Assembly (NCBI GenBank): GCA_020860565.1
Contig: JAJBUA010000064.1
Span: forward strand, 1-42,161
Direction: 5' to 3'
DNA: 42,161 nt
DNA from: Clostridiales bacterium
GTDB taxonomy: Bacteria; Bacillota; Clostridia; Lachnospirales; Lachnospiraceae
Positions within the stretch are counted from its first letter, which is position 1. Each line of letters begins with the position of its first letter. Made by a program: the position numbers and the translations under genes. A model generated the notes under the pieces. That model was not told where the DNA came from. It did no database searches and was given only the letters and a program-made list of their open reading frames with translations. Positions 1,036 to 25,363 of this stretch are shown here, piece by piece.

Positions 1036-2250
1036 ATGAAAAAGAACTGGAGAAAGATGATGGCAGGGGCATTGGCACTGGCGGTATTGATGAGCACAGG
1101 ATGCTCGGCTCAGAGCAGCCAGACCACCACGGAGGCACAGACGACAGAGCAGACCGCTGCGGCGGAAACAGAGGCGGAGACGACTGCCGTCGCGGAGACG
1201 GAGGAGAAAGCAGAAGAAGAATCTGCCGCGCAGACCACAGGAGCCGTTAATTACGGAGAGATCGAGGACACCACAATTCAGGTGGAAGACATTGTGCTTA
1301 CGGATGAATGGGACAAGGTCTTTGAACTCAGCGATGAAGTGAACCACCGGAAAGTGACTTTTGTCAACCATTTCGGCAACACGCTGGCAGCTGATCTGTA
1401 CGAGCCGAAGGAATATACCGGTAAGCTTGCGGCTGTCGCTGTCTGCGGACCGTTTGGCGCAGTCAAGGAGCAGAGCTCCGGTCTTTACGCGCAGGAGATG
1501 GCGAAAAGAGGTTTCCTCGCGATCGCGTTTGACCCGTCTTATACCGGTGAAAGCTCCGGATATCCCAGATATTTTAACTCGCCGGACATCAATGTAGAGG
1601 ATTATCAGGCGGCGATTGATTTCCTGTCCGTGCAGGACAATGTTGACCCGGAGCGGATCGGTATCATCGGCATCTGCGGCTGGGGCGGCATGGCTCTCCA
1701 GACGGCGGCGCTGGATACCAGAATCAAGGCAACGGCGGCGATGACGATGTATGATATGAGCCGGAATACCGCGCTTGGATATTTTGATTCGGTTGATGAA
1801 GAGGGCAGATATGAGGCGCGTGTCACGTATAACAACCAGCGGACGGAGGATTACAAAAACGGTTCCTACACTCTGGCAGGCGGCGTGGCGGATGAGATTC
1901 CGGAGGATTCTGCGCAGTTTGTGAAGGATTATTATGACTATTATAAGACTGAACGTGGTTATCATCCACGCTCGCTCAATTCCAACAACGGATGGGCGGC
2001 TACGGCCAGCGGTTCCCTGATGAATATGCGGTTATTCGAGTATGCGCCGGAGATTCGCAGCGCGGTTCTTCTGGTACATGGAGAAGAGGCACATTCCCTG
2101 ATGTACAGCGAAGCAGCTTATGAGCTTCTTGAGGGAGACAACAAAGAGCTGATGATCATCCCTGGGGCAAACCATACCGATCTGTATGATCAGATGGATA
2201 TCATTCCCTTTGATAAGCTGGAGAGCTTCTTTATGGAAGCGTTTCAATAA
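1036..2250 (+). CDS. Exported alpha/beta hydrolase lipoprotein
   Basis: Start chosen at 1036 because AAAGGAG lies just upstream; in-frame codons further upstream have no ribosome site. The 404-residue protein begins with a lipoprotein signal (KK, hydrophobic stretch, MSTGC with Cys23 as the likely lipidated residue). A Thr/Glu/Ala-rich linker follows (about 25-70), then an alpha/beta-hydrolase domain. The nucleophile elbow reads GIIGICGWGG, so the candidate nucleophile is Cys214, as in dienelactone-hydrolase relatives. VHGEEAHS and PGANHTDLYD probably supply the acid and His. It is the first gene of the operon and a close paralogue of the leaderless hydrolase at 8351-9325; the clearest difference is the added export signal and linker. 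The substrate is unknown; an ester, lactone or thioester is possible. Confidence 0.85.
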   Translation: MKKNWRKMMAGALALAVLMSTGCSAQSSQTTTEAQTTEQTAAAETEAETTAVAETEEKAEEESAAQTTGAVNYGEIEDTTIQVEDIVLTDEWDKVFELSDEVNHRKVTFVNHFGNTLAADLYEPKEYTGKLAAVAVCGPFGAVKEQSSGLYAQEMAKRGFLAIAFDPSYTGESSGYPRYFNSPDINVEDYQAAIDFLSVQDNVDPERIGIIGICGWGGMALQTAALDTRIKATAAMTMYDMSRNTALGYFDSVDEEGRYEARVTYNNQRTEDYKNGSYTLAGGVADEIPEDSAQFVKDYYDYYKTERGYHPRSLNSNNGWAATASGSLMNMRLFEYAPEIRSAVLLVHGEEAHSLMYSEAAYELLEGDNKELMIIPGANHTDLYDQMDIIPFDKLESFFMEAFQ

Positions 2251-2255
2251 ATCCG

Positions 2256-3500
2256 ATGTCAAGGGAAGTCCTTTTATACAGGCAGGAAATTCGGGATGCG
2301 CTGGACAGGCTGAACCAGGCCGCACCGCTATGGAAAGAACTGGATTACTTTTTCGAAACAGCGGAAAACGGATGTCTTTTGACAAAGGATAACTGTAAGA
2401 AAGGAACCGTTATTGCGCTGGGGAGCAGTGTGCCAGAGGAACTGCTGCTCGCCTCTGGCGCATGTTGTCACCGGGTGTTCGGAGGCAGCATGCAGACAGG
2501 CGCTTGGGGCGGCGACAGGCTGCCGAGAGATGCGGACGGCGTAAGCCGTTCCGCATTGGGATATCTCATCGGCGCTGAAGATATTTCCCCGCGTGACATT
2601 CTGATTTTGATCCCGGTTGTGAGTGATAATAACCGAAAGCTGGCAGGGATACTGAGACAGTCCGGATATCGGGTACACACCATCGATTTTCCTCCTGCTA
2701 AGGATTTATGGGCGGAGGAAAAATGGCTCCGACAGTGGGAAGACTGCAGAGAGGCCCTCTCTGCCCACACGGGCAAACGGATTGGCTTCCGGGCGCTTGG
2801 ACGGGCCTGTAAGGATTTGTCCGATTGCCGCGCACAGATACGCCGTTTTCTTCAAATTGCGTATGAGAGAAGGGATCTGGTGTCTGGCAGCCTGCGGATG
2901 TTTCTTCTGTTCAGTTATTTCTGGGCGACGGATATCCGGGAGTGGACGTTTCATCTGTCTGTTCTTGTCGAAGAAATGAAAAAAACAGCCCAAAGACGAG
3001 ATTTGTCCGGCATTAATCATCGTGCAAATGTCCTGCTGATGGGGTCTCCTGTGTATTTCCCCAATTATAAGGTACCGTTTCTGATTGAGGACGCGGGAAT
3101 GTATATCAGTGCTCATATTGACAGTACGACATGGGAACTGGCAGGGGTGGATGGTGAGAGCGATACAAAGAAATTGTCAGCGTCAGAACGTGCAATCCAA
3201 TTTTACCGGAACGACTGTTCGGGCGCATATGCTCAAAACAGAACCCTGATGGAGCGGATTTTGCAGGTTATCAGACAAAGACCGGTTGACGGCGTGATTT
3301 ATCAGGTGCTGAAAGGCCAGGTGGAGCCGGATTTTGAGATGGAGCGGTTTGAAAAATGTTTTGAAGCGCAGGGCCTTCCGGTATTCCGTCTGGAAACGGA
3401 TTACAGCAGTCAGGATACCGGACAATTATCCATCCGTCTGGACGCGTTTATGGAACTGCTGACTCAACAGCGATACCGGAAAGGCGCAAAAATCATATGA
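2256..3500 (+). CDS. HgdB/YjiM-family (2-hydroxyacyl-CoA dehydratase-like) protein lacking cluster cysteines
   Basis: This 414-residue protein aligns throughout with the protein at 5316-6614 and belongs to the HgdB/BcrC/YjiM family. Shared landmarks are PEELLLASGA, RDADGVSRSALG, IPVVSDNNRKLAGIL, LLMGSPVYFPNYKVP, DGVIYQVLKG and ETDYSSQDTGQLSIRLDAF. Positions that bind the Fe-S cluster in relatives are replaced: Asp94, Ser123 and Gln355 stand where the partner has Cys107, Cys137 and Cys370. The partner's Cys335/Cys337 pair is also not preserved; a single Cys321 falls between these positions. It is therefore probably a structural or substrate-binding partner rather than a cluster carrier. The ATG lies 5 bp after the hydrolase stop and overlaps the next gene by ATGA, implying translational coupling. 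Confidence 0.82.
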   Translation: MSREVLLYRQEIRDALDRLNQAAPLWKELDYFFETAENGCLLTKDNCKKGTVIALGSSVPEELLLASGACCHRVFGGSMQTGAWGGDRLPRDADGVSRSALGYLIGAEDISPRDILILIPVVSDNNRKLAGILRQSGYRVHTIDFPPAKDLWAEEKWLRQWEDCREALSAHTGKRIGFRALGRACKDLSDCRAQIRRFLQIAYERRDLVSGSLRMFLLFSYFWATDIREWTFHLSVLVEEMKKTAQRRDLSGINHRANVLLMGSPVYFPNYKVPFLIEDAGMYISAHIDSTTWELAGVDGESDTKKLSASERAIQFYRNDCSGAYAQNRTLMERILQVIRQRPVDGVIYQVLKGQVEPDFEMERFEKCFEAQGLPVFRLETDYSSQDTGQLSIRLDAFMELLTQQRYRKGAKII

Positions 3501-5323
3501 AAAGAAAATACGGAGCCGCGTTGTTATATATGGCCTGTGGCCTGCTGACTGTCGCGGCTTTTTTTGCTAAAGATTTCGTGCTTTATGATTTCCATATGGA
3601 ACCATCGGATTATACGTTCCGCCTGACGGATCAACCGCGTCCGGACTGTGCGGTTTCGGATGTCTGGTTTGATTATGGCGACGGGGGAAAAGAACTCCTC
3701 ATCGGCGTATCGGAAGAGGTTTCTTTGGAAGATGTGCAGGTGTATACACTCACAGCAGATGGCAGTACCGCTGTGAACAGGGAAGAGCTTTCTTCGAATC
3801 AGGCGGAGCTTATGAGCAACTACATGATTGCTGTGCTTCCGGAACGTCTGAAAGATATTAATGGAGACGGAAATCCGGAACGAATCCGGGATTTTGCCCG
3901 TGCGGATATCGGAGAACCGGCATTTAACCCGACGCCACAGATATTTAACTGTGAAGACATCCCCTTTGAACTGGTGTTTTCCGAACGAAAATACATAAGG
4001 GTATTTTTCCATAACCAGCTGTTGACGGAGGGAGAGATTACGGTTACATCCGCCGACGGCAGCTCAAAGATTTATCCGATCGACAGCCGTGGCTGGATTG
4101 GCGGTCTGCCCATCCGGGATATTCGGGAAGGGTTTACGGCTGAGTATATCTCGGAAAATGATCAGGCGGTTTATCGGATGCAGTATGCACTGGAGGATTA
4201 TCCGCTGGGCGGTTTGCATTTCTGGAAAGCGCAAATCCCACTGTTGATGGTGTGTGCTCTTGCGGTCATCGGGATTATCCTGATCCAGACTGTTCGCTGT
4301 AAAACAGAACGAGACACTCCTGCTTACCGGATATACAGCCGGGAACATGCGGGATTTTATCCAGGAACCTCGCTGCTGGAAAAAACGGACTCCAGATTTT
4401 TGCTGATTCGCTGGCTCTGTATGCTGACGGGAATGTTTGTGCTCACGTATCTGGGAAAACTGACCGGGCAGGGACAGGTCGGAAATGAAATCGCCATTCC
4501 ATCCTTCGCGTGCCCGTTTAACATGGATCAGATTGTGGAAATGCCCTGTTATTATTTATCCCATCTGCCGAACCTTTTGCTGCGCGGTGGAGAGGCATTT
4601 CCTATGCGCACGGTCCGCTATATCGTCCTGTTTACGGTTACGCTCCTTTTGTCCTTTGTGTTTCTGGGACGAATTCTCTGTGGGTTTCTGTGTCCGGCCG
4701 GATTGATCCAGGATGTGATGGATCAGATACGCCGCGCGCTGCACATCCGCCCGGTTACGGTGACGGATCGGATGTATCGCATTCTCCAGCCGGTAAAATG
4801 GCTTTGGATCGTTCTGTTTTTCGGCGCGTTTTTTGCCGGGATTGACTTTTGTGATATTTGCCCGCTCAAAGTATTTAATACCGCGCAGGGAGGCTTCTGG
4901 ACGAATCTTTATCTGGGAGGGTTTCTGGCCGTTATCATACTTGTGGGAAGTTTTTTTATCCGACGGTTCTGGTGTCTGGTCTGTCCGCTCGGTTATCTGA
5001 TGGGGCTGTTCCATAAATATAATCTGTTTCATCTGAAAAAAGACTGCGTTGCCTGTACGGAATGCGGCGGGTGTTATGAAGTCTGTCCGATGCGCTTAAA
5101 GGAGATTTACACAGAACGGGAAACGGAAAATATCCAGACGGTCGATTGTCTGATGTGCGGCGAATGTATCGGCAAATGCCCGGAAACGGGAGCGCTTTCG
5201 TTTACTTTTTGCGGGAAGAAGATTTACAGCTCGGATCGGATGACGTTTCTTTCCCGTTATCGGACCATGCAAAGAAAAGAAACGCCAGCTGAAGCGAAGA
5301 GGGAGGAGGATCACGATGAGTGA
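3497..5323 (+). CDS. Membrane-bound polyferredoxin (NapH/NosR/CcoG-like) with extracytoplasmic domain
   Basis: The 608-residue protein has an N-terminal membrane segment (about 7-24) and a large predicted extracytoplasmic domain (about 25-245) that I do not recognise. Further membrane segments lie near 246-266, 303-320, 373-393, 433-449 and 472-489. Cysteine pairs of the NapH/NosR type follow membrane helices: CGFLCP (395-399), CDICP (452-455) and CLVCP (493-496). Two cytoplasmic 4Fe-4S motifs follow (Cys520/523/526/530 and Cys551/554/557/561). Such proteins carry electrons between the quinone pool or membrane and soluble partners. Its position between the two HgdB-like genes suggests it exchanges electrons with that system. 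It overlaps the upstream gene by ATGA and the downstream gene by 8 bp. Confidence 0.85.
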   Translation: MKRKYGAALLYMACGLLTVAAFFAKDFVLYDFHMEPSDYTFRLTDQPRPDCAVSDVWFDYGDGGKELLIGVSEEVSLEDVQVYTLTADGSTAVNREELSSNQAELMSNYMIAVLPERLKDINGDGNPERIRDFARADIGEPAFNPTPQIFNCEDIPFELVFSERKYIRVFFHNQLLTEGEITVTSADGSSKIYPIDSRGWIGGLPIRDIREGFTAEYISENDQAVYRMQYALEDYPLGGLHFWKAQIPLLMVCALAVIGIILIQTVRCKTERDTPAYRIYSREHAGFYPGTSLLEKTDSRFLLIRWLCMLTGMFVLTYLGKLTGQGQVGNEIAIPSFACPFNMDQIVEMPCYYLSHLPNLLLRGGEAFPMRTVRYIVLFTVTLLLSFVFLGRILCGFLCPAGLIQDVMDQIRRALHIRPVTVTDRMYRILQPVKWLWIVLFFGAFFAGIDFCDICPLKVFNTAQGGFWTNLYLGGFLAVIILVGSFFIRRFWCLVCPLGYLMGLFHKYNLFHLKKDCVACTECGGCYEVCPMRLKEIYTERETENIQTVDCLMCGECIGKCPETGALSFTFCGKKIYSSDRMTFLSRYRTMQRKETPAEAKREEDHDE

Positions 5324-6614
5324 GAATGGGATTGACGAACGGAGAAAATTACTTTTCCGCCAAAAATCCATGCGGGTAGCTTCCTCTTATCTTCGTCGTA
5401 TCGCTGCGCTGGGGAATCTTCCGGAGTCGGTTCGGCCTTTTCTGGATGTATTGAAGCAGGTATCGGTCGATTTTCAGCCGGTTTCCATGATCGCGGAAAG
5501 GAAAACGGTTGGAACATTCTGTCTGATGGTTCCACCGGAGCTGGTAGAAGCGGCGGGAGCGGTACCGGTGCGTCTCTGCTCCGGCAGTTATACCGCTTAT
5601 TCTATAGGCGACGGGATAGCGCCGAGAGACGCCTGTCCTCTGGTCAAAGCCGTGCTGGGGATGGAGGAAATGGGAATTTCCCCTCTGTATGAGGATTGTA
5701 AGCTTTTCATTATTCCTGTTACCTGCGACTGTAAAAAGAAGCTGGCGGGGATGCTGGGAGAGCGGCGTCCTACAGCTATTCTCTCTGTTCCATCGTCAAA
5801 GGAACAGGATTCCGACACGGAGCAGTTTTTGCGGGAATTGTACCGCCTGATTCCGGTTCTGGAACAATATACCGGGGGACGTGTTACTGCCGGAACATTG
5901 GCTGAAAGCATTAACCGGCGTGGTTATGCGCAGTATGAGATGAGCCGTTTCTTTACTTTTCGCCGGAATGTACCATATCTCCTGTATGGCACACAGGCTA
6001 TGGCGATCATGAACGCGCTGTCTTATATGCCTGCTCTGGAATGGGGGGAATGTCTGCACAGGGTGAATGAGGAACTTGCGGGGCGCCTTGCCAAACGTCA
6101 GTTTGTGGCAAGGGAAAATCGTCCACGCATTTTGATAACCGGTTCTCCTGTTACATTTCCCAATATAAAAATTCCGCTTCTCATCGAGGAAATGGGAGGG
6201 ATGCTGGTGGCGGATGAGACCTGTCTGGGGGAGCGCAGCCTGTATGATCCGGTTGTCGTTACGGACAGAAGTCTGGACGGTATGATGCGGGCGATTGCAA
6301 ATCGTTATATCCGGCCCTGTACCTGCCCGTCGTTTGTAGAAAACCGCCAGCGCATCTTTCGTATTCGTCAGATGATAAAAGACTACCAGGTACAGGGAGT
6401 TATCTGCCATATTCTGCGGGGGTGTCTGGTTTACGATTATGAATATCAGAGACTGGAGGAAGAACTGGAAGAACTTCACATTCCCGTTATCCGCGTGGAA
6501 AGCGATTACAATGAGGAAGATGTGGAACAGCTTCGTATTCGTATTGAGGCGTTTATTGAGCTGATTAAGCGGAGAGATGTTGTACGGAAAAAATCAGGAG
6601 AGAAAGTGCTATGA
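5316..6614 (+). CDS. Double-cubane-type HgdB/YjiM-family cluster protein
   Basis: The 432-residue protein starts behind GGGAGGAGGA. It carries the full family signature: RDACPLVK (Cys107), TCDCKKK (Cys137), ADETCLGE (Cys303), RPCTCPSF (Cys335, Cys337) and HILRGCLVYDYE (Cys370), ending with ESDYNEEDVEQLRIRIEAF. The spacing resembles that of E. coli YjiM and the double-cubane [8Fe-9S] cluster protein family as I remember them. Classical 2-hydroxyacyl-CoA dehydratase subunits use only three cysteines. I therefore favour a double-cubane protein: a cytoplasmic reductase needing ATP-driven electron injection from the downstream activase. The substrate is unknown. A true 2-hydroxyacyl-CoA dehydratase is less likely because no CoA-transferase, acyl-CoA dehydrogenase or Etf gene is nearby. 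Confidence 0.8.
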   Translation: MSENGIDERRKLLFRQKSMRVASSYLRRIAALGNLPESVRPFLDVLKQVSVDFQPVSMIAERKTVGTFCLMVPPELVEAAGAVPVRLCSGSYTAYSIGDGIAPRDACPLVKAVLGMEEMGISPLYEDCKLFIIPVTCDCKKKLAGMLGERRPTAILSVPSSKEQDSDTEQFLRELYRLIPVLEQYTGGRVTAGTLAESINRRGYAQYEMSRFFTFRRNVPYLLYGTQAMAIMNALSYMPALEWGECLHRVNEELAGRLAKRQFVARENRPRILITGSPVTFPNIKIPLLIEEMGGMLVADETCLGERSLYDPVVVTDRSLDGMMRAIANRYIRPCTCPSFVENRQRIFRIRQMIKDYQVQGVICHILRGCLVYDYEYQRLEEELEELHIPVIRVESDYNEEDVEQLRIRIEAFIELIKRRDVVRKKSGEKVL

Positions 6615-7396
6615 AATCATATTTTGCAGGATTAGACGGAGGTTCCACCTATCTGAAGGCCGCTCTTTTAAAGGACGGTCAGGTAGTGGGTACGATGGCG
6701 CGCAGCACGGGGATTGATAATAATCAGTCGGCGGCCTCTCTGTTGGATGAACTCTGTTATCAATCCGGAATTTCGAGGGACGATATCGGCTATACGATGG
6801 CAACGGGATACAGCAGGAAAATTCTTTCCGTCGCGGACGATGATATTTCTGAAATCACTGCTCACGCCTGCGGCGCCCGGATTACCGCTCCGGATGGTTT
6901 CCTTCCTGGCATGATCGTTGATATTGGCGGTCAGGACAGCAAAATCATCTATCTGGACAGGGACTACAATATTAAAAATTTTACAATGAACGATAAATGC
7001 GCTGCCGGAACCGGCAAATTTATGGAGGTCATCGCACAGCTTCTGGAAACAACCATCGATCAGGTCGGCCCATTATCTCTCGAAAGCAGGGAGCCCTGTG
7101 ATATCAACAGTACCTGTGTAGTTTTTGCACAGTCGGAGGTTATCTCACTGGTTGCCCGCCAGTTCGACCGGAAGGATATCCTGGCGGGGATGCACTTATC
7201 CATGGCAAAACGAATCATTAAGATGATGAAAAAATCAGAACGAAACGGAGATATCCTGATGACCGGCGGAGGGGCGATGAATATCGGTATCCGGAAGGCT
7301 TTTGAAGAAGAGCTGATGAGACCTGTGTATGTGGCGGATCATCCGCAGTTTAACGGGGCAATTGGGGCGGCGCTGATTGCCAGTGAAAGGGGATAA
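6611..7396 (+). CDS. HgdC-type ATP-dependent activase (archerase) of HgdB-like proteins
   Basis: This 261-residue ASKHA-fold ATPase matches the BadF/HgdC family in length and motifs: GLDGGSTYLK (phosphate 1), DIGGQDSK (phosphate 2), MNDKCAAGTGKFM with Cys130, DINSTCVVFAQSEV with Cys169, and LMTGGGAMN near the C-terminus. In this family the two cysteines of a homodimer jointly hold one [4Fe-4S] cluster, and ATP binding drives a very low-potential electron onto the partner's cluster. The start overlaps the preceding stop (ATGA) and has an upstream AGGAGAGAAAG. It is the expected partner of 5316-6614. Confidence 0.93.
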   Translation: MKSYFAGLDGGSTYLKAALLKDGQVVGTMARSTGIDNNQSAASLLDELCYQSGISRDDIGYTMATGYSRKILSVADDDISEITAHACGARITAPDGFLPGMIVDIGGQDSKIIYLDRDYNIKNFTMNDKCAAGTGKFMEVIAQLLETTIDQVGPLSLESREPCDINSTCVVFAQSEVISLVARQFDRKDILAGMHLSMAKRIIKMMKKSERNGDILMTGGGAMNIGIRKAFEEELMRPVYVADHPQFNGAIGAALIASERG

Positions 7397-7403
7397 AACA
7401 GTG

Positions 7404-8081
7404 ATGACAGTATATTTGCCTGTTTTTGTTACGGCAGCGGTCGTCGGTCTTGGGTGTGGAACCTGTTGCGGCTCAGTTGTCAGTGTATTCCTGTCTTCCT
7501 ATGTCATTTCCCATGGGAATGGAGTAAAAACGGGAATTTCAGCCTTTGCAAATTTCTTTTTCGGAAAGATTCTGAGCGTGACCGTCCTCTGCACAGCCGC
7601 TTCTCTGGCTGGAAATTGTTTTATTGACGCGGACGGATATATTGGTTCTTTTAATCTGCGTTTGATGGTCCGGCTGGCAATGGGCGGAATCGGCCTGATT
7701 ATGGCTGCCCGGTGGGGGATTGAGGAGAGAAAGCAACGCAGTGGATGTCAGAACTGTAACAGCTGCGGCGTGAAAGCAGATGAATTGCCTTTTGGCGTCT
7801 GGCCTGCTTTTGTGGCCGGCATGGTATATGGTTTTACCCCGTGCGCTCCTCTATTGTTAGTCATGGGGTGCGCGTTTACTCTTTCCGCTCCGCTGGCAGG
7901 ATTGACAGGCGCAATATTCTCGGCTGCAAGTGCTGTCAGTCCTGTTTTATTTCTTGCTGTTCTTTCCGGGGCGTTGTCCGGCAGAATGGCCAGGGAAATT
8001 CCAAAGTATGTGAAATGGTTCCGGCTGGCGTCCTATGTATTGTTGATCGTTATGCCGTTATCCATTCGTGTTCAGGTATGA
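7404..8081 (+). CDS. CcdA/UreH-like membrane thiol-redox protein with CxxCxxC loop
   Basis: A hydrophobic protein of about 225 residues with roughly six membrane segments. The N-terminal helix contains GLGCGTCCG (Cys18-22) and a later helix contains GFTPCAPLL (Cys147). This is the arrangement of membrane-embedded cysteines in CcdA/DsbD-beta proteins, which pass reducing equivalents across the membrane. A loop between them carries CQNCNSC (115-121), which could bind a metal or Fe-S cluster. ATG 7404 is chosen; GTG 7401 is equally well placed behind AAAGGGG. It starts 8 bp after the activase stop and ends the operon. A TauE/SafE or metal-transport relative is an alternative. Confidence 0.7.
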   Translation: MTVYLPVFVTAAVVGLGCGTCCGSVVSVFLSSYVISHGNGVKTGISAFANFFFGKILSVTVLCTAASLAGNCFIDADGYIGSFNLRLMVRLAMGGIGLIMAARWGIEERKQRSGCQNCNSCGVKADELPFGVWPAFVAGMVYGFTPCAPLLLVMGCAFTLSAPLAGLTGAIFSAASAVSPVLFLAVLSGALSGRMAREIPKYVKWFRLASYVLLIVMPLSIRVQV

Positions 8082-8350: not shown

Positions 8351-9325
8351 ATGAATGAACCGCTTATGTTAACAAATGAATGGGACAAGACATTCCCACA
8401 GAGTGAAAAGATCGAACACAGTAAGGTGACGTTCCATAACCGGTATGGGATCACGCTGGCTGCTGACCGGTATGTGCCGAAAAACGCTAAAGGTAAACTC
8501 CCGGCGATCGCGGTGTGCGGACCGTTCGGCGCGGTGAAGGAGCAGGCGGCCGGTTTGTATGCGCAGACTATGGCGGAGCGAGGCTTCCTGACGATCGCCT
8601 TTGACCCTTCTTATACGGGTGAGAGCGGCGGAACGCCGCGTTATATGGCATCTCCGGATATTAACACGGAGGATTTCATGGCTGCGGTGGACTTCCTCTC
8701 GGTGCAGGACAATGTTGACCCGGAACGGATCGGGATCATCGGCATCTGCGGCTGGGGAGGTATGGCATTGAACGCGGCGGCGCTGGATACCCGTATCAAG
8801 GCGACAGTCGCTTCCACCATGTATGATATGACCCGTGTGAACGCCAACGGTTACTTTGACAGCGAGGACAGCGAAGAGGCCAGATATGGGAAACGCAAGG
8901 CTCTCTGCACTCAGCGTACTCTGGATTACAAAAATGGCACTTACGCTCTGGGCGGTGGCGTTGTTGATCCGCTTCCGGAGGACGCTCCCTTCTTTGTAAA
9001 GGATTATTACGACTATTACAAGACCAGCCGGGGCTATCATGCCCGCAGCCTGAATTCCAACGGAGGCTGGAATGTGACCGGGTGTGAGTCCTTTATGAAT
9101 ATGCCGATTTTGCAGTACAGCCAGGAGATCCGCAACGCTGTACTCATTATTCATGGAGAAAAGGCACATTCGTGTTACTTCAGCAGGGATGCTTTTGCGA
9201 AACTGACGGGTGAGAACAAGGAACTGATGATTATTCCGGGAGCCGTGCATACAGACTTGTATGACCAGATGGATGTGATTCCATTCGACAAGATCGAATC
9301 TTTCTTTGGAACGTATCTGAAATAA
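8351..9325 (+). CDS. Cytoplasmic alpha/beta hydrolase, paralogue of 1036-2250
   Basis: This 324-residue protein starts behind GGAAAGG and lacks a signal peptide. It aligns over its whole length with the lipoprotein at 1036-2250: LTNEWDKTF, AVCGPFGAVKEQ, FDPSYTGESGG, GIIGICGWGGMALNAAALD, YYDYYKT and PGAVHTDLYDQMD. The candidate nucleophile is Cys133 in GICGWGG, with IHGEKAHS and the HTDLYD His as likely acid and base. It has its own promoter with the shared operator and ends before a bidirectional terminator. The pair probably handles the same compound class inside and outside the cell; this is inference. Confidence 0.87.
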   Translation: MNEPLMLTNEWDKTFPQSEKIEHSKVTFHNRYGITLAADRYVPKNAKGKLPAIAVCGPFGAVKEQAAGLYAQTMAERGFLTIAFDPSYTGESGGTPRYMASPDINTEDFMAAVDFLSVQDNVDPERIGIIGICGWGGMALNAAALDTRIKATVASTMYDMTRVNANGYFDSEDSEEARYGKRKALCTQRTLDYKNGTYALGGGVVDPLPEDAPFFVKDYYDYYKTSRGYHARSLNSNGGWNVTGCESFMNMPILQYSQEIRNAVLIIHGEKAHSCYFSRDAFAKLTGENKELMIIPGAVHTDLYDQMDVIPFDKIESFFGTYLK

Positions 9326-11073: not shown

Positions 11074-11841
11074 ATGAAGAAAAGATGGCTTGTTTCCCTG
11101 TTGGTTGCAGCTGCTTTGACCGCTTGTTCCAGTGCTGCCGCAGAGACGACAGCAGAAACAACAGCAACAGTAACGGAAGCGGCAGAGTCAGAAGTGTTGA
11201 CGGATGCGGAAACGGAAACAGAAACAGCGGAGACGGAAGAGATAACCGCAGATACCACTGATGAATCGGCGAACGCAGGGATCAGCGAAGCGTTTGCACA
11301 ATATTTGACCGAAGTGAAGACCAATCAATATTTTGAAGATACTCCGGTGCCGGAGGAAGATGCGCGCATGATTCTGGAAGCCGGAATCAACGCACAAAGC
11401 GGGATGAATATGCAAAACTGGCATTTCACCGCGGTAACCTCTCATGAGGTTTTACAGCAGATTGCCGACGATATGAGCGCAGGCATGCCGGCCGGAGCTA
11501 TGGGCGGAACTGCAAAGGCGGGAATTGCCGACGCACCGCTGGTCATTCTGATTTCCTGCGGGGACGGCAAGGAGTATGACGCGGGTCTTGCGACTCAGGC
11601 GATGAACTCCGCGGCTCTGGCCCTTGGTTACGGAACGAAAATTATCTCGTCTCCATCCATGGTTCTGAACGGCGAGAAACAGGCGGAATACAAAGAGCAG
11701 CTCGGTATCCCGGACGAGATGGCATTTGTGGGAGCGCTTCTGATCGGCGAGGCGATAGACACAAGTACGCTCGACGCAGATGCGATCACCGGTCCGACCG
11801 AGAGAAATGATTTTTCTGAGATGACGACGTTTATAAATTAA
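11074..11841 (+). CDS. Exported nitroreductase-family lipoprotein
   Basis: The 255-residue protein has a classic lipoprotein signal (MKKRWLV..., LTAC, lipidated Cys18). A Thr/Glu/Ala-rich linker (about 22-70) resembles that of the hydrolase lipoprotein at 1036. A nitroreductase-fold domain follows (EEDARMILEAGINAQSGMNMQNWHF, AGIADAPLVILISCGDG, GLATQAMNSAALALGYG). Nitroreductases are FMN-dependent and normally cytoplasmic; anchoring outside the membrane implies an extracellular reductase. It is monocistronic, with its own promoter and terminator. The substrate and the way flavin is loaded are unknown. Confidence 0.85.
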   Translation: MKKRWLVSLLVAAALTACSSAAAETTAETTATVTEAAESEVLTDAETETETAETEEITADTTDESANAGISEAFAQYLTEVKTNQYFEDTPVPEEDARMILEAGINAQSGMNMQNWHFTAVTSHEVLQQIADDMSAGMPAGAMGGTAKAGIADAPLVILISCGDGKEYDAGLATQAMNSAALALGYGTKIISSPSMVLNGEKQAEYKEQLGIPDEMAFVGALLIGEAIDTSTLDADAITGPTERNDFSEMTTFIN

Positions 11842-11893: not shown

Positions 11894-12063
11894 GATTCCA
11901 TAGGATTCTTTTTTATCGCGCGACACTTGCCGGGTATTGTTGCTTGATTAGCGTCTGGTGAGAGAATAAAATATAATCACGCAACAGGTGTCGGGAGATA
12001 ACCGGAAACACAGGGTAAGAGTTTCCATATGCGGATAAAAATGATGGCAGGAATGAGGTGCGA

Positions 12064-13422
12064 ATGATGCAAAAGGAAAGAAACGACGCGCAGTATAAAA
12101 AAATGACTGAGGGTTCCGTGAACCGGATCATTCTTTCGCTGGGAATACCGGCTACGATCAGTATGCTGGTTACCAATTTATATAATATAGCGGATACTTA
12201 TTTTGTCAGTCAGATCGGCTTAAGTGCCAGCGGAGCTGTGGGTATTGTTTTTGGCTTTATGTCCGTTTTGCAGGCAATCGGTTTTATGTTCGGTCAGGGA
12301 GCCGGAAGCAATATCGCAAGAAGCCTGGGAGAAAAGGATGAAGAAGCAGCCGGAGAATAGGCCACGATATCTTTTATGACTGCGTTTATTTTAAGTATCG
12401 TTATCGGCGGAATATGTCTGGCTTTTTTAAATCCCTTTTTAAGGCTTCTGGGCAGTACGGAAACAATTTTGCCATATGCAGCCATCTATGTAAAATGTAT
12501 CATTGCCGCCGCGCCTTTCACCGTCTGCGGCTTTGTCATGAATAACATTCTGAGGTTTGAGGGTAAGGCAAACTATGCGATGATAGGTCTTGTATCCGGC
12601 GCGCTTTTAAATATGATCGGCGATCCGATTCTTATCTTTTATTTTGGCCTGGGAATATACGGAGCCGGTCTTTCCACGGCATTTTCGCAGATCGTCAGCT
12701 TTTTTATTCTTCTTTCGTTTTTTGTGCGGGGAAAAACGTCAGTCAAACTGAAGTTTGCGCACATTAAGCCTGACCTGAATAAATTTAAAGATATCGTAAC
12801 CATTGGGTTCCCTTCTATGTCGAGACAGGGACTTCAAAGCATTTCAACCATGCTGTTAAATAATTATGCCGCTGTTTACGGAGATGCCGCAGTTGCCGCT
12901 ATGAGTATCGTTTCGAGGATCGTATTTCTGGCATTTGCTGTCGGTCTCGGAGTTGGCCAGGGTTATCAGCCTGTGAGTGGATACAATTACGGGGCAAAAA
13001 AATACTCAAGAGTAAAGCAGGCGTTTCGATTTACCCTGATTTTAAGCGAGGGAATTTTAGGCTTCTGTGCTGTTATCTGTTTTTTTGCCGCTCCCTATGC
13101 GGTCAGTATCTTCCGAAAAGATCCGGAGGTGCTGGATATCGGGGTACTGGCGTTAAGGCTTCAGTGTGTGAGCATGCTTTTTCAACCGTTAGGCGTAGTT
13201 TCCAATATGACCTTCCAGAGTACGGGAAAGGCGTTTCTGGCGTTTGTTTCCTCATTATTCCGAAACGGTCTTTTCTTTATACCCACTATCATAATAGGAA
13301 CGCATTTTTTTGGTATTTTGGGAATTCAGTCGGCGCAGGCTGTAAGCGATATCCTGACGTTTGCTGTCATGCTTCCTCTTATTATGTATTATTTTAAAAA
13401 TCTTCCGGCTGATGGGAAATAA
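12064..13422 (+). pseudogene. MATE-family efflux transporter interrupted by an in-frame amber codon
   Basis: A MATE transporter of about 450 codons whose reading frame is continuous except for TAG at 12358-12360. The N-terminal part (MTEGSVNRIILSLGIPATIS ... GEKDEEAAGE) and the C-terminal part (ATISFMTAFILSIVIGG ... YFKNLPADGK) are in the same frame with nothing missing, so a single nonsense change is the simplest explanation. ATG 12064 or 12067 follows a GAGG site. An internal ATG at 12376 could start a truncated protein lacking the first helices, probably inactive. Readthrough or a sequencing error remains possible. MATE proteins export drugs or metabolites using cation gradients. Confidence 0.75.
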
Positions 13423-13465: not shown

Positions 13466-13655
13466 GCATTCGTTGAAATGAAGTATTCAAAATATGTTGG
13501 AGACAGATATCTCTTGTCCCAAAAAGTTGTAGATGGGTTTCAGTGGTCAAAACCAAAGCAGATGTTAAAATAATTGACATTATAGGGGAGACAGAATATA
13601 CTAATGCTTAGTAAGATAACTTAGTTATAGAAACGTGAAAGCGAGGCAAATGATT

Positions 13656-13910
13656 ATGAGTAATAGTAATGTTGTTACCTGTTCGTTTTCTATGGACAGG
13701 GATATTTATAACGCTTATAAGAGCATTGTAGTTAAGAATGGTGAAAATGTAAAAGGGAATATTGTAAGATACATGCAGTCGGTTATTCAGTATGGGACGC
13801 CTAATGCAGATACGATCGAAGCAATCGCGGAAGTGCAGGACTTGAAGAAAGATCCGAATAAGAAAACCTACAATAGTTTTGCTGAAATCTTAGAGGAAAT
13901 AGATGAATGA
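13656..13910 (+). CDS. RelB/DinJ-type antitoxin
   Basis: The 84-residue protein starts at ATG 13656 behind GCGAGG. It has an N-terminal ribbon-helix-helix segment (NVVTCSFSMDRDIYNAYKSIV) and a C-terminal acidic tail (SFAEILEEIDE) that would wrap the toxin. Its stop overlaps the start of the YafQ-like gene by ATGA. It probably binds its own promoter in the AT-rich stretch before 13656; no clear promoter boxes were assigned. Confidence 0.85.
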   Translation: MSNSNVVTCSFSMDRDIYNAYKSIVVKNGENVKGNIVRYMQSVIQYGTPNADTIEAIAEVQDLKKDPNKKTYNSFAEILEEIDE

Positions 13911-14185
13911 ACAAATATAAGATTGTTCCAACCAGTCGTTTTAAGAGAGATTTAAAGACGGCAAAAAAGAGAGGATATGATCTTGATTTGCTTGGCGCGG
14001 TAGTAGATACGCTTGCTTTGGGAGAGCCTTTACAGGAAAAGTATAAGGATCATAACTTATCAGGAAATTATAGCGGGTGCAGGGAATGTCATATTACGTC
14101 AGACTGGCTGCTGATCTACGAGATAGACGGAGATAAACTGATTCTATATCTCACCCGCACAGGAACGCATAGCGATTTGTTTTAA
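13907..14185 (+). CDS. YafQ/RelE-family mRNA interferase toxin
   Basis: The 92-residue protein has the compact RelE-superfamily fold of YafQ: SRFKRDLKTAKKRGYDLDLL, a middle KDHNLSGNY, CHITSDWLLIYEID, and the C-terminal LTRTGTHSDLF with the conserved His and Phe. YafQ toxins cut mRNA on the ribosome. It is coupled to the upstream RelB-like antitoxin by a 4-bp overlap, and the catalytic region looks intact. Confidence 0.9.
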   Translation: MNKYKIVPTSRFKRDLKTAKKRGYDLDLLGAVVDTLALGEPLQEKYKDHNLSGNYSGCRECHITSDWLLIYEIDGDKLILYLTRTGTHSDLF

Positions 14186-16075: not shown

Positions 16076-16855
16076 CTATTTAAATTTATTGCACATAACA
16101 TCGTTCATATTCATTTCTATCAGACTGGCAACTTTCGCAGGAATTACCCGCATCTGTTGCGCAATCTTTTCTGGAGAACCAAGGTATTCCTCCATAAGTG
16201 CAGGAAAGTCAAGCGGCATTGATTCCATATCTACTTTTATATATTTATGTGCAAGCAGCCACAACAGGAAACTCTGCGGTGTATTTACCGTACATGTATC
16301 ATAAAATGAAGTAACGACGGCGATATTGGAAGCAAGTACATGGTTCATTTCATCTCCAAAGACGATTTGGAAAGGTATTTGGTTCAGTTTCCAATAACTC
16401 ATTTCAATCCGTTGTATTTCGACCGCTCTGGCAACTGACAGATCTTCTATATCGCCAAAAATAACAGACCGGTCATTTTTGATGGAATATGCCTTCTGTC
16501 TTATCATTCCTTTTTCATCGACATAATCTACCAGAAGATCTGTTGTCATCGGATCGATTCCGTTGCCCGGATGTTTTACTCCGAAGCTGGCGGCAATCTT
16601 CTTAGTTTTCTCTATCTCAAGCGGGAACTGCTCTCGGATGTCGGTGACACGGTCATTCCATCGGAGGATGTAATAGAAACGAACCTCGTTTTGTGAGAGA
16701 AGATGGCGCTGGCGACCGTCCTTCCAGTCTTTGATAATGCCTTTTGTCCCAATGCTGGAAATCTCCCTCGCCTTGATCCACGGAGCGTAATCAACGCCTT
16801 TATTGGTTCCGCGTCCTGTCTGGTATTTACGCTTTATAGACATTCTTCTTGCCAT
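16076..16855 (-). CDS. tnsA: TnsA-like transposon endonuclease
   Basis: The 259-residue protein matches the TnsA endonuclease family. Its N-terminal nuclease domain has LLSQNEVRFYYILRW (Glu57), MTTDLLVDYVD (Asp106) and KAYSIKND (Lys126), a credible Glu-Asp-Lys type-II restriction-like active site. A C-terminal winged-helix-like part follows. In Tn7, TnsA nicks the 5' ends of the element while TnsB cuts and joins the 3' ends, giving cut-and-paste transposition. Here it is the last gene of a tnsB-AbiEi-like-tnsA operon, which is not the usual tnsA-tnsB-tnsC order. Confidence 0.85.
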   Translation of the reverse strand: MARRMSIKRKYQTGRGTNKGVDYAPWIKAREISSIGTKGIIKDWKDGRQRHLLSQNEVRFYYILRWNDRVTDIREQFPLEIEKTKKIAASFGVKHPGNGIDPMTTDLLVDYVDEKGMIRQKAYSIKNDRSVIFGDIEDLSVARAVEIQRIEMSYWKLNQIPFQIVFGDEMNHVLASNIAVVTSFYDTCTVNTPQSFLLWLLAHKYIKVDMESMPLDFPALMEEYLGSPEKIAQQMRVIPAKVASLIEMNMNDVMCNKFK

Positions 16856-16866
16856 AACAAATTACC

Positions 16867-17580
16867 TCATTTCGGTTCGATATTGAAGATTTCCTTAACC
16901 CATCTTTGCAGAGTTTTGTTTTGAGTAGATATATACGGAAGGAACATGTCGTAGGTGAGAGCGTGACCATGAATATGTTTTATAGCCTCAGCTTTTGATA
17001 TTTCCCCGCTGCATATCTTCATAAGGGAGCACGAAAGAATATTCAGTGCTTCTGCTATTTCTTTTGTCATATCGTTAATTTTGAATCGGCACCCCATGAG
17101 CCGGATTGTCTGTCCAAATGCGTTTACGAGCCGCCCTTTCAAACCAGATTCTTTGTTTGTCTGGATGCTTACGATATCTGGTTTTTCATTGATAAGCCCG
17201 TATTCATAAGCAATGCTTTCCCTGTAATATACTCCGATTGTCTTGCCGTTCCGGCAAAGATATTTTTCACGGATCAGCCGTTCCGGCGAAACTTCCAATA
17301 AGGAAAGGGCATAGATACCGCTTGCAACGCGGTAAATCACGCCGTCATTTGCCATATCCTTAATTCTTGCTTTAAGGATACTATATTCGATCCCCTTCAT
17401 ATGGATATCTTCAAGGAAGATCAGATCCTCATTCGTATATGCACTCTTGAGCTTGTCTAAAATCTGGTCTGAGACCGTTTCCTTTGGCTGGATTCTTTTC
17501 CTTCTTCCGTCAAGATGCAGGATCTCCGATTTGGTCGGGCGGTTGATTTCCTGGATGATCCTGGATTTCGGCAGGCTCAT
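16867..17580 (-). CDS. AbiEi/DUF6088-like winged-helix regulator inside the transposase operon
   Basis: The 237-residue protein has an N-terminal winged helix (about 35-90: SDQILDKLKSAYTNEDL, ILKARIKDMANDGVIYRVAS) leading to GIYALSLLEVSPERL. This is the signature layout of AbiEi-type antitoxins and DUF6088 proteins, followed by the AbiEi C-terminal region. Classical AbiEi sits beside the AbiEii nucleotidyltransferase toxin; none is present here. It overlaps tnsB by 71 bp, sits 11 bp before tnsA and occupies the place where tnsC would be expected. It may regulate the operon or the transposase. No zinc-finger or AAA motifs that would make it TniQ or TnsC are visible. Confidence 0.6.
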   Translation of the reverse strand: MSLPKSRIIQEINRPTKSEILHLDGRRKRIQPKETVSDQILDKLKSAYTNEDLIFLEDIHMKGIEYSILKARIKDMANDGVIYRVASGIYALSLLEVSPERLIREKYLCRNGKTIGVYYRESIAYEYGLINEKPDIVSIQTNKESGLKGRLVNAFGQTIRLMGCRFKINDMTKEIAEALNILSCSLMKICSGEISKAEAIKHIHGHALTYDMFLPYISTQNKTLQRWVKEIFNIEPK

Positions 17581-19834
17581 GGATTTTAATTTCTTCTTCG
17601 GTTGCGTTGCTTAAGTCTATTACAGATGCCCCGGCTGTGGCATCTGTATCTGCGACCGTTGTTTCCGGTGTCATTGGCTCCTCTTTGTTTTCAACCGGTA
17701 ATGTGGCTGTTGAGGATTCACGACTGGTTTCATCAATGAGGGCAGAGTCTTCCAGGTTCCCTGTGACAGCAAGGGCGTCTTCAGGCTTATCGCCAAGATT
17801 GAAACGCTCCGATACGCTTCTTGTCGATGATATCGATTGTTTTTCAGCTTGGCGGTTATTTCGCATGTCTGCCGTATTGTTATCGTGCGTCCTGTATTTT
17901 GATTTCTCTTTTATAATTCTTTTCGCCGCTCTGCGCTCTGCAATGTGAACCTCAAGATTCTGGCGGTTTTCCGCTGCACGGGTGGCTTTTTCCGCATCGG
18001 AAAGAGAATCAAATTGTTTTTGGCTCATTCCAAAATACTCTGCGTAACGCCAGTCACCTGTAGGAAGCGAAAGCGTCATCAGTATTCCGTTTTTGAGATA
18101 ATAGAGATGTCCCATATCCCTTAGATCGGAACGCGCCACAAAATTTTCTCTTTTTGATCCGAGCCGATACATTCTTTGGATTAATTCGTTATCATCCGCA
18201 TTATAATAAGTCAGTCCCTTCCACTGCACGCCGTCCTTTGAACAGGAGACTTTTTTCTCTGGTTTCAGCATTGCATAAAGTGCTTCATCCTTGTTTGAAA
18301 AATAACTTGGCGCCAGGAGTTTTTCTGTCCCATATTTCCAAAGTGCTGCTGGTATAGCGGGGATTTTATCCCGTTTCATTGATGCGCTCCTTGGATATGT
18401 CTTGATAGCATGCATATTATGCGAGATGACATGGTTCAGCACCAATGCAAATGCATCATCATAATTCAGACAAGCCTGCTCATGGTGTTTTGAACCATAT
18501 GTAGTACGGATGAGACCCTTTTCTTCAAGAAGGTCATCAAGTCTTAGTTTGATCTGATTGAAAAAGTTTTCAACCATTGGCTTAAGCGAACCAGTTGCCG
18601 GCGGGACAATTTCAAGATTGATACCCAGTTCACTGGCAATCCTTGAGACCTCGTCCGAAATAAAATCAGAGCCATTGTCGCTTCGTATTGTAAGCGGGCG
18701 GACGCCTGTGGGCCAGACATCCTGTATCGTATATCCATTATCAAAATGAAATTCAGCGTGACAGTATTTTTTATAAAGTTCTTCTTTATCTTCGAGAAGA
18801 CTGAGGTAACAGTTTGTCATTCCGACGATGCTGTTGTTATCCATTGCAAGTGATACGCCAAGGATGATTTCACTCATTACGTCGATCATCACATAAATAA
18901 TGGGACGGCCTACCGGAATATCCGGATATTCATGGGACACAAGGGCAATGTCCATTTCCTGTGCGTCAATTTCAACAACGTGTCCGGGGCCTTTTACGCC
19001 TTGTATAACGGTACCGATTTTTACACGGTTGTTGTTTCGTACCACTCTTGCGGTTTTTTTCGATTCGTCCCGCTGTCTGCTCGTAGTATGTTTTGACACA
19101 TAGTAGTAAAACTGCTTAAATGTCGGAATCTGTCCATCCGGCAATGGTTTACGAATATACTCGTATGTTCCATCATCACGTTCCCTGCTCGTCTCAAACG
19201 AATACTTTTCGTCAATTAAATCGTAATAAGCATTTTGAATTGTTCTGACTTCACTGTTCAGATATCGTTTCGTATAAGTGTCAAAATTTTTAAAATCTGT
19301 TTCGGACAAAATCGGTGCGGGCGCTTTACATGAAGATTTGGCACCGGATTGTAATGTTTTGGCCTTCTTAGGAACCATGTTGCTGAATGTTCGCTGGTCA
19401 ATAAGAGTGTAATTTTTCATTCCGCCTTGCAAATACCGAATCAGTAATTTCCATAAATAATCTCTTGATATTTTTGCCTCTGAGACTATTTCATCTACAA
19501 TCGGTTTTTTATGTTTTCCTGCAAGCTCATTAAATGAGGGCGCATAATAACTGACAATTCTATCCATATATCCCTTATATAGCCAAAATTTTTCAGCTTT
19601 TTCTTCAGATAAAGTGGATATATCTATAATTTGTGGGTCATCCTGAATGACAATAAATTTTCCTGTATTTATCAGGTTTCGAAGAATCTTCAATGAGAAT
19701 TTTTCAATTTTTAATGTTTTAATGTTCATCAAACATAAGACAGCAATACCGTCATAAACAGAAATAAGCCTGTACTCGGTACCCGTCTCTGGATTTTTCA
19801 GGTGAATTCCTTGGAATAATTCAGTTTCAGCCAT
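17510..19834 (-). CDS. tnsB: TnsB/TniA-family DDE transposase
   Basis: Start chosen at 19834 (MAETELFQGIHL), which lies 8 bp behind GGAGG; the ATG at 19849 would contain that site. The 774-residue protein has N-terminal DNA-binding regions and a retroviral-integrase-like core. The catalytic triad is Asp290 (VEIDAQEMD), Asp386 (IRSDNGSDF) and Glu422 (KPMVENFF). A Mu-type beta-barrel and a long, polar, probably disordered tail (from about 640) follow; the tail includes the stretch overlapping the AbiEi-like gene. It catalyses 3'-end cleavage and strand transfer and binds the repeated end sites. The core looks intact. Confidence 0.92.
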   Translation of the reverse strand: MAETELFQGIHLKNPETGTEYRLISVYDGIAVLCLMNIKTLKIEKFSLKILRNLINTGKFIVIQDDPQIIDISTLSEEKAEKFWLYKGYMDRIVSYYAPSFNELAGKHKKPIVDEIVSEAKISRDYLWKLLIRYLQGGMKNYTLIDQRTFSNMVPKKAKTLQSGAKSSCKAPAPILSETDFKNFDTYTKRYLNSEVRTIQNAYYDLIDEKYSFETSRERDDGTYEYIRKPLPDGQIPTFKQFYYYVSKHTTSRQRDESKKTARVVRNNNRVKIGTVIQGVKGPGHVVEIDAQEMDIALVSHEYPDIPVGRPIIYVMIDVMSEIILGVSLAMDNNSIVGMTNCYLSLLEDKEELYKKYCHAEFHFDNGYTIQDVWPTGVRPLTIRSDNGSDFISDEVSRIASELGINLEIVPPATGSLKPMVENFFNQIKLRLDDLLEEKGLIRTTYGSKHHEQACLNYDDAFALVLNHVISHNMHAIKTYPRSASMKRDKIPAIPAALWKYGTEKLLAPSYFSNKDEALYAMLKPEKKVSCSKDGVQWKGLTYYNADDNELIQRMYRLGSKRENFVARSDLRDMGHLYYLKNGILMTLSLPTGDWRYAEYFGMSQKQFDSLSDAEKATRAAENRQNLEVHIAERRAAKRIIKEKSKYRTHDNNTADMRNNRQAEKQSISSTRSVSERFNLGDKPEDALAVTGNLEDSALIDETSRESSTATLPVENKEEPMTPETTVADTDATAGASVIDLSNATEEEIKIHEPAEIQDHPGNQPPDQIGDPAS

Positions 19835-19928
19835 GTTATTGTCCTCCATGGATGTCGGTGCTTTTTATATGTTTCTACGGTAAGGCAAAGGTAGTTATAT
19901 AGTATGTTCACGAAATATTGTAAAAATT

Positions 19929-22463: not shown

Positions 22464-22493
22464 TTTTTATGTCTCCTTTATTGATATTATTGA

Positions 22494-23204: not shown

Positions 23205-23216
23205 TGATACGTTTCC

Positions 23217-24080: not shown

Positions 24081-24110
24081 CACTTGTTCCTCCTCGTAAA
24101 AAACAAAAAT

Positions 24111-24151
24111 GGGTATGGATTCGATACCTTTCGTATCTCCTCCATACCCAC
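24111..24151 (-). terminator. Hairpin at the AKR operon leader, probable terminator of the upstream gene
   Basis: Arms TGGGTATGGA (24111-24120) and TCCATACCCA (24142-24151) enclose a second stem GATAC/GTATC. On the minus strand the structure is followed by ATTTTTGTTTTTT. It lies just inside the predicted start of the AKR transcript. It could stop readthrough from 24260-25315, attenuate the operon or bind a regulator. Confidence 0.65.
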
Positions 24152-24152
24152 A

Positions 24153-24196
24153 TTATAATTCTTCGGGTTTTTCATATCAAATACTTAGTTTCTATC
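24153..24196 (-). promoter_or_regulatory. AKR-operon promoter with LysR-type operator
   Basis: On the minus strand TTGATA (24176-24181), a 17-bp spacer and a perfect TATAAT (24153-24158). The upstream element ATAGAAACTAAGTATTTG (24179-24196) matches the one at 8204-8221 at 17 of 18 bases. Confidence 0.75.
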
Positions 24197-24259
24197 GGTG
24201 ATCCATGCTTAAAAGGCATCTAAGTTTCTAATGAACTAACCAACTACCTAACCACTACC

Positions 24260-25315: not shown

Positions 25316-25363
25316 CATGGCCTCCTTATCTTTTTTTCATTCTGAGTCGGTTAGACATAAAAA

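Follow-up and report, generated by a model that had tools for sequence, protein, structure and literature searches.

The stretch of DNA considered here (hereafter the window) covers positions 1 to 42,161 of contig JAJBUA010000064.1 from a Clostridiales bacterium of the Lachnospiraceae (assembly GCA_020860565.1), and its forward strand carries a real, conserved operon of five genes, which we call A to E (2256-8081). The operon encodes two proteins of the HGD-D family (A and C), a NapH-like polyferredoxin (B), an activase-type ATPase (D) and a CcdA-like membrane protein (E), and as far as could be searched it is an undescribed variant of the kind that includes double-cubane cluster proteins (DCCPs), benzoyl-CoA reductases and 2-hydroxyacyl-CoA dehydratases. 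We rank two of the new facts as the strongest, namely that A has lost the predicted cluster ligands and that it is inherited together with B and E. The function that we favor, tentatively and at somewhat less than an even chance, is that of a membrane-tethered, ATP-driven double-cubane electron-transfer system, in which A and C would pair as a heterodimer holding one [8Fe-9S] cluster and B and E would provide an export route.

The Operon and Its Distribution

Positions of open reading frames (ORFs) were taken from a program-made list and families were assigned by Pfam and NCBIfam profile scans, with some genes named by eye. The original prediction had described six co-directional genes with overlaps or short gaps at 1036-8081, and all six are present at the expected coordinates; the conserved unit comprises the last five. 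On the forward strand, A (2256-3500) encodes a DCCP paralogue, B (3497-5323) a protein with a transmembrane helix, a putative extracytoplasmic domain, a NapH-like membrane domain and a 2x[4Fe-4S] domain, C (5316-6614) a DCCP-type subunit, D (6611-7396) an ATPase of the HgdC/DCCP-reductase type and E (7377-8081) a DsbD_2/CcdA-like membrane protein. Successive genes overlap by 4 (A-B), 8 (B-C), 4 (C-D) and 20 bases (D-E), the last becoming a 7-base gap if E begins not at the TTG at 7377 but at the ATG at 7404, which agrees better with aligned relatives and is the likely start.

Homologues of A were sought in four overlapping samples, namely 195 relatives at an E cut-off of 1e-3, then 391 genomes from the class at 1e-15, 398 from the phylum at 1e-25 and 397 from the family at 1e-30. 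At the stricter thresholds of the last three, divergent members such as G156, whose own A scores 4.4e-11, may have been missed. The operon was recovered in 19 genomes of one class, the window included. Contig ends cut the locus in three of them (G099, G445 and G1188), and each of the other 16 (the uncut loci) holds A, the NapH-like core of B, C and D, with C interrupted in G003. E is present in 14 of the 16 and was not found anywhere in the genomes G473 and G236 at E 1e-3. The gene order A-B-C-D-E holds in 12 loci, among them G156, where a gene for a small transmembrane protein is inserted between A and B. Elsewhere the order is B-C-D-E-A followed by a separate gene for the extracytoplasmic domain of B (G105 and G115), or the locus consists of A, a small transmembrane protein, the B core, C and D (G473 and G236); B is divided into two adjacent frames in G1130 and is shorter in G077, where most of the extracytoplasmic domain is missing. 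The assembly of the close relative G003 has an interrupted frame for C (L034:10173-11510) beside open frames for A, B, D and E, and this C was left out of the C alignment, the tree and the cysteine table; rows lying past contig ends (C of G445 and G1188, A of G099) were likewise excluded.

In the phylum sample A matched in 17 of 398 genomes, namely the window and 16 others at no more than 29% identity, and the four of those 16 that were examined are ordinary DCCP-like genes. Among the 195 relatives, matches to B above 130 bits were exclusively operon copies, with the next best at 70 bits, and E was found in ten genomes: nine with the operon, and G106, where no operon gene was seen around a weak match of 49 residues. 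E is present once each in 11 of the 14 member genomes tested, and tblastn with E at 1e-5 found nothing on plasmids. A separate search of genome contigs for related loci yielded a single one, apparently on the contig of G003. Corrected pairwise distances of the five families (B represented by its last 300 residues) correlate at 0.91-0.98 across 13 genomes, a range that also reflects shared species history. The recurrence of the same genes together in 19 genomes is not chance, and with the profile matches it bears out the earlier proposal that a double-cubane-type, activase-driven pair is tied genetically to a NapH-like polyferredoxin and a CcdA-like protein. The conservation envisaged for the whole six-gene set holds for A to E but not for the hydrolase H1 that precedes them, an H1-like gene lying immediately upstream of A in only two of the 16 uncut loci (the window and G003).

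Two Unequal HGD-D Proteins

In the window genome (2.83 Mb, 95% complete) only two HGD-D genes were found, A and C (Pfam E 8.8e-47 and 7.5e-85, respectively). The closest solved relative of C by sequence is the DCCP 7yyl (1.4e-60), which A also matches (6.5e-21). In an alignment with DCCP, MbdN and BzdN sequences, six cysteine columns are common to C, DCCP and BzdN, and MbdN has some of them. Six cysteines ligate the [8Fe-9S] cluster of BzdN according to section 8 of PMC11971306, and the six columns are probably cluster ligands in C as well. They fall at positions 69, 107, 137, 303, 337 and 370 of C and are cysteine in 16/16 C rows and in 18/18 other DCCP-like rows; among 13 more distant HGD-D rows, nine have all six and four do not.

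A presents the same columns stripped of nearly every cysteine. Across its 18 rows they hold, in order, glycine (17 rows), aspartate (18), cysteine (5), cysteine (1), serine (15, with 3 gaps) and glutamine (18), so that all six ligand columns are lost in 12 rows and five of the six in the other 6. With at most one cysteine kept, A falls short in all 18 rows of the three or six that a cluster-bearing HGD-D subunit requires. The two HgdB/YjiM-like proteins of the original prediction are both HGD-D members but are not equivalent. That A is simply a decaying copy of C without a role would account for the lost ligands and for the long A branches in the tree, but we find it scarcely credible: A is a single open frame in all 18 genomes whose contigs hold it, occurs in every uncut locus and has 38 columns conserved in at least 17 of its 18 rows, and the residues that replaced the cysteines are nearly fixed (D 18/18, Q 18/18, G 17/18), which speaks against decay and in favor of a pocket that has been kept without a cluster.

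The HGD-D tree (65 rows, unrooted, with a program warning of long branches that concerned chiefly A of G156 and G473) places A in one clade (100/99) and C in another (98/84), and the two split together from the remaining HGD-D rows (98/96), which makes A the nearest paralogue of C on this tree. Their sub-groups largely match (G156/G473/G236; G105/G115; G077 with G485/G376), the differences lying at the weakly supported places of G156 and G1038. Taken together with its ligand columns, A appears to be a duplicated DCCP whose cluster has been lost.

The shared superfamily, and the combination of HGD-D proteins with an activase, would also suit an ordinary 2-hydroxyacyl-CoA dehydratase or benzoyl-CoA reductase accompanied by bystander membrane genes. 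We regard this as very improbable. C has its highest score, 309 bits, to the double-cubane family (curated DCCP model NF040772, where A scores 133 and the cut-off is 350) and lies far below the equivalog cut-offs for HadC (79 of 700 bits), BzdN (69 of 454) and BcrC (49 of 421). Moreover, A is without cluster ligands, the genes A to D, including that for the NapH-like protein, recur in 16/16 uncut loci, and no CoA-transferase or acyl-CoA enzyme was recognized by eye beside the window operon, in agreement with what had been noted at the outset.

C also has cysteines of its own beside two of the ligand columns, Cys335 in 16/16 C rows and Cys139 in 13/16, neither of which occurs in any of the 18 other DCCP-like rows; Cys128 is found in 16/16 C rows but also in 8/18 of the others. 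These flanking cysteines, and the richness of B and E in cysteine, would fit a module in which the substrate reduced by C is a disulfide, a persulfide or a selenium species while B and E move sulfur-linked electrons or thiols across the membrane. A homologue of the Se/S-carrier (PF11823) adjoins the DCCP in 11 of 17 other-DCCP loci (L042, L044-L047, L091-L095 and L097; by BLAST in all 11 and by Pfam in the three checked), and in G224 (L097) the DCCP and the carrier come right after SelA, SelB and a SelD-like gene. In addition, a STRING table in PMC5322559 links a 2-hydroxyglutaryl-CoA dehydratase subunit and an activase to DUF3343, YedF or a selenium-related LysR protein. The carrier loci hint that ordinary DCCPs have a role involving selenium or sulfur. 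For the operon itself a role of this kind is distinctly unlikely, given that the carrier is found in 0/18 member loci tested (the window was outside this test) and that 6/17 of the other-DCCP loci are also without it, none having been found in L128-L131 (phylum sample), L043 or L096. Two further observations concern these ordinary DCCP loci: a class-V aminotransferase gene precedes at L042, and in G191 (L043:4608-5932) a DCCP and an activase are followed by a thioredoxin-like protein (below cut-off) and an ArsP_1 permease.

Membrane Partners and the Activase

B is predicted from Pfam, hydropathy and alignments to consist of one transmembrane helix, an extracytoplasmic domain of about 200 residues, a NapH-like membrane domain (PF12801) and a C-terminal 2x[4Fe-4S] domain, with Pfam matches to Fer4_5 and ferredoxin domains. 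It has two CxxxCP/CxxCP motifs, as NapH-like polyferredoxins do, and it scores below the NapH cut-offs (69 of 234 bits for PRK09477 and 76 of 213 for TIGR02163). Twelve cysteines are present in 18/18 B rows, eight of them in the ferredoxin domain and the others at 395, 399, 493 and 496. Judged by hydropathy, and with the ferredoxin domain taken as cytosolic, these last four would lie on the inner face of the membrane and a further four (339, 351, 452 and 455) on the outer face. All 14 uncut loci that contain E have the outer four complete. B of G473 and G236, the two loci without E, lacks 339, 452 and 455 in both alignments, and 351 is a cysteine in one alignment and a gap in the other. Cys 351 occurs in 0/21 other NapH-like proteins of the relatives. 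A profile of the N-terminal domain of B found nothing in the PDB up to E 10 and showed no similarity to a profile of E.

E matches DsbD_2 (PF13386) in Pfam only, at 6.2e-8 and 33 bits against a cut-off of 25. The E of G376 also exceeds this cut-off, no Pfam match was obtained for the divergent G105 protein, and a profile of E found nothing in the PDB up to E 10. CcdA has two cysteines, each in a transmembrane segment. E has four that are invariant in 15/15 sequences. C27 and C156 fall in hydrophobic segments, the first of the protein and a later one, respectively, and C124 and C127 form a CxxC in the loop that precedes the C156 segment; loop charge counts gave no decision on sidedness. Two candidate roles for E were discarded. 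A link to the ArsEFG nitroaryl system, suspected at first, was dropped because a scan of the window E against NCBIfam gave nothing up to E 10. A role in cytochrome c biogenesis was rejected because the cytochrome c assembly family PF01578 was found in 0/19 member genomes (a control search was positive in 9/14 known genomes), so that E is not kept for cytochrome c.

D is the most conserved member of the operon, with a mean corrected similarity of 0.75 against 0.34 for A. It matches BcrAD_BadFG in Pfam (3.4e-55) and exceeds the cut-off of TIGR00241 (222 bits, cut-off 125), and its cysteines C130, C163 and C169 are invariant in 17/17 sequences; C130 and C169 we take to be the ligands of the bridging cluster. 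As to where electrons might originate, RnfC-type proteins score over cut-off in 18/19 member genomes, so reduced ferredoxin is probably available. By comparison, menD passes its cut-off in 1/19 (G1188); G115 has a partial match of 121 bits, and most of the other genomes have weaker ones below the cut-off. A classical menaquinol donor for B is thus unlikely (the futalosine route was not searched).

A Proposed Route for Electrons and Its Direction

From these patterns we infer the pairing of A with C, the type of cluster, the topology, the outward direction of flow and the involvement of thiols. C and A would form a heterodimer whose single [8Fe-9S] cluster is located in C, A being the cluster-free half that serves docking, regulation or substrate binding. 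D would transfer electrons from ferredoxin or flavodoxin to C at the cost of ATP, and the cytosolic 2x[4Fe-4S] domain of B would accept these low-potential electrons and hand them from the inner cysteine site to the outer one, near the extracytoplasmic domain. E might then act as a CcdA-like thiol relay that maintains the outer cysteines, or their partner, in the reduced state. Such an arrangement would serve to supply strongly reducing electrons on the far side of the membrane, where no ATP is available, and we favor outward flow because a soluble reductase would need no transmembrane cysteine path. A bolder version, in which the double-cubane family would here have its first membrane-wired member and the one-[8Fe-9S] heterodimer would use cytosolic ATP to drive electrons below -500 mV along the NapH-like wire to a reduction on the outside, strikes us as rather improbable; the [8Fe-9S] cluster would in that case possibly be modified by the extra flanking cysteines.

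A number of points weigh against export. Passing electrons from the level of a double-cubane cluster to ordinary thiols would waste ATP, so that export calls for an unusual acceptor, and none was found. G473 and G236 retain A to D without E and without the full set of outer cysteines, and export by that route is consequently not universal; since their A proteins are sisters in the tree, the association of E with the outer cysteines may rest on a single event. Positions 339, 452 and 455 are also cysteines in 15/21 other NapH-like proteins of the relatives, which makes them a wider NapH-like trait and leaves only the motif special. Pfam and NCBIfam scans detected in B neither an FMN-binding domain nor any other known domain for electron exit, and an FMN-binding domain was likewise not detected in the seven other window proteins scanned or in the two separate genes for the N-terminal domain. 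The extracytoplasmic domain has no family match and no significant fold match: its model, built from the window and L003 rows, has a predicted local distance difference test (pLDDT) value of 51 and gave no Foldseek match at E <= 0.001. The model of A from the same two rows (pLDDT 40) is equally uninformative. Finally, C stays under the curated double-cubane cut-off, and binding between A and C is itself a prediction.

Because the boost from ATP would be wasted on ordinary outer acceptors, a serious rival is that B works in the opposite sense, its 2x[4Fe-4S] domain feeding D, which would drive C (with A shaping the pocket) to reduce a small cytosolic substrate, while the outer cysteine site and E would only tune B's redox state or sense it. 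Activases take electrons from ferredoxin-type donors, and boosting by ATP is thermodynamically sensible only ahead of a low-potential reduction. This arrangement would also sit well with the two loci that have A to D but neither E nor a complete outer cysteine set, and with the RnfC-type proteins, through which reduced ferredoxin is probably made. On the other hand, a soluble ferredoxin would suffice as donor, and a membrane-bound B with outer cysteines and a CcdA-like partner in 14/16 uncut loci would go unexplained. We therefore hold a donor role for B to be possible, if doubtful, and retain outward export by the A-C heterodimer, B and E as the tentative preference.

Neighboring Genes

H1 (1036-2250, forward strand) is predicted from Pfam to be an alpha/beta hydrolase of the DLH/S15-like kind and, from a signal identified by eye, a lipoprotein; its ORF opens at 964, the lipoprotein signal begins at 1036, and a 5-base gap separates it from A. 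A second hydrolase, H2 (8351-9325, forward strand; ORF list and Pfam), has no evident signal peptide. Both are accessory. In 5/16 uncut loci (the window, G009, G1130, G1223 and G1038) H-like genes follow E at a distance of up to about 2.5 kb, a count for which the view is limited in G017, whose contig ends just past E. The idea that the hydrolases prepare or clear the substrate of the system has thus lost its footing, as they are not conserved with the operon. On the reverse strand, a LysR-type regulator gene that runs off the window end (3-740; family assigned by eye rather than by profile) is divergent from the operon and is a candidate regulator, and LysR-like genes are similarly divergent at loci L034, L036, L146, L147 and L150. 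The hydrolases, LysR genes and flavodoxins differ between loci and are accordingly context, not core.

At 21594-25318 and 11074-11841 the window carries genes for flavodoxins that look exported or lipoprotein-like, for an aldo/keto reductase named by eye and for a nitroreductase whose start resembles that of a lipoprotein; the gene at 21594-22463 matches Flavodoxin_4 and the remaining flavodoxins were named by eye. Comparable genes adjoin the operon in several relatives, and their products could be outer electron acceptors. A cysteine-rich peptide, F, was considered as an outer partner and set aside as not core, being near the operon in 3/14 member genomes tested. Beside the operon, at L087:5800-6321, L088:6355-6918 and L037:11222-11674, lie genes for short proteins that have a single hydrophobic segment near the N terminus, a motif of four cysteines (type CGGCGxNCSLxxPRC) at the C terminus and no Pfam match over cut-off. 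Elsewhere in G105 a DUF4405 membrane protein (L126:7337-8494) contains the four-cysteine motif twice, and a like motif opens a MarR-like protein, named by eye, in G099 (L111). In G1223 (L147:5449-7381) E is followed directly downstream by genes for a DUF362 protein whose start is lipoprotein-like and for a permease of the ArsP_1 type. Elsewhere in the window, three minus-strand genes (16076-19849), TnsA- and TnsB-like by eye, look like part of a Tn7-like element, a MATE-type transporter appears by eye to be split into two neighboring frames (12058-13422), and a small gene pair at 13635-14185 resembles, again by eye, a RelB/YafQ-type toxin-antitoxin.

Relation to Described Systems

In the open-access full-text literature we found no described system with this gene set and no characterized pathway with the same gene order, as the original prediction had anticipated; the matches were mostly screened by title, abstract or passages, and the main DCCP papers lie outside this coverage. 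The nearest described counterparts are the DCCP and DCCP reductase of Carboxydothermus hydrogenoformans (PDB 6ENO, 7YYL), which share the six cysteine columns with C and, by profile, the kind of ATPase with D. Passages of PMC11971306 describe DCCPs as homodimers with a double cubane in each monomer, whereas here a ligand-free paralogue, the putative partner subunit of C, is encoded with it in 16/16 uncut loci together with membrane partners. Class I benzoyl-CoA reductase, BzdNO(PQ), likewise has two HGD-D subunits, one of which keeps the double cubane, and is driven by an ATPase. According to the same source, BzdO has a catalytic [4Fe-4S] cluster with three cysteines and binds CoA esters, whereas A keeps at most one of six columns; moreover, the operon has one activase gene and no CoA genes recognized nearby. 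The 2-hydroxyacyl-CoA dehydratases (HadBC, HgdAB) also combine an HGD-D pair with an activase, but are described there with one cluster in each subunit, and C is remote from HadC.

Of the membrane proteins, B resembles the NapH-like modules of NosR and PceC treated in PMC8238504 in having a PF12801 domain, a C-terminal ferredoxin domain and an N-terminal extracytoplasmic domain. The passages concerned present such modules as modular conduits that supply electrons to reductases located outside the cytosol or draw them from oxidases there; in the set considered, an FMN-binding domain forms part of the protein or lies next to it. B differs in having no FMN-binding match, in its outer Cys 351 and in its genetic partner, a cytosolic ATP-driven reductase. 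E resembles CcdA/DsbD_2 thiol relays in its PF13386 match and possibly in the placement of C27 and C156 in hydrophobic segments, but has an additional invariant CxxC (C124, C127) and belongs to genomes in which no PF01578 gene was detected.

The biological function of double-cubane proteins is given as unknown in a 2025 structural paper (PMC11971306), which, in the relevant passages, orders the superfamily by the sub-clusters lost per subunit: two [8Fe-9S] clusters in the DCCP homodimer, [8Fe-9S] with [4Fe-4S] in BzdNO, and [4Fe-4S] with [4Fe-5S] in 2-hydroxyacyl-CoA dehydratase. The A-C pair would add to this series a combination of [8Fe-9S] and none. If it is true that one subunit has apparently lost every sub-cluster, the superfamily gains a further arrangement, and one in which the pair is tied genetically to membrane proteins whose cysteines are predicted to lie at both faces. 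With its small gene set, and in genomes that yielded no PF01578 match, the operon offers a place to test what an ATP-driven double-cubane system is for.

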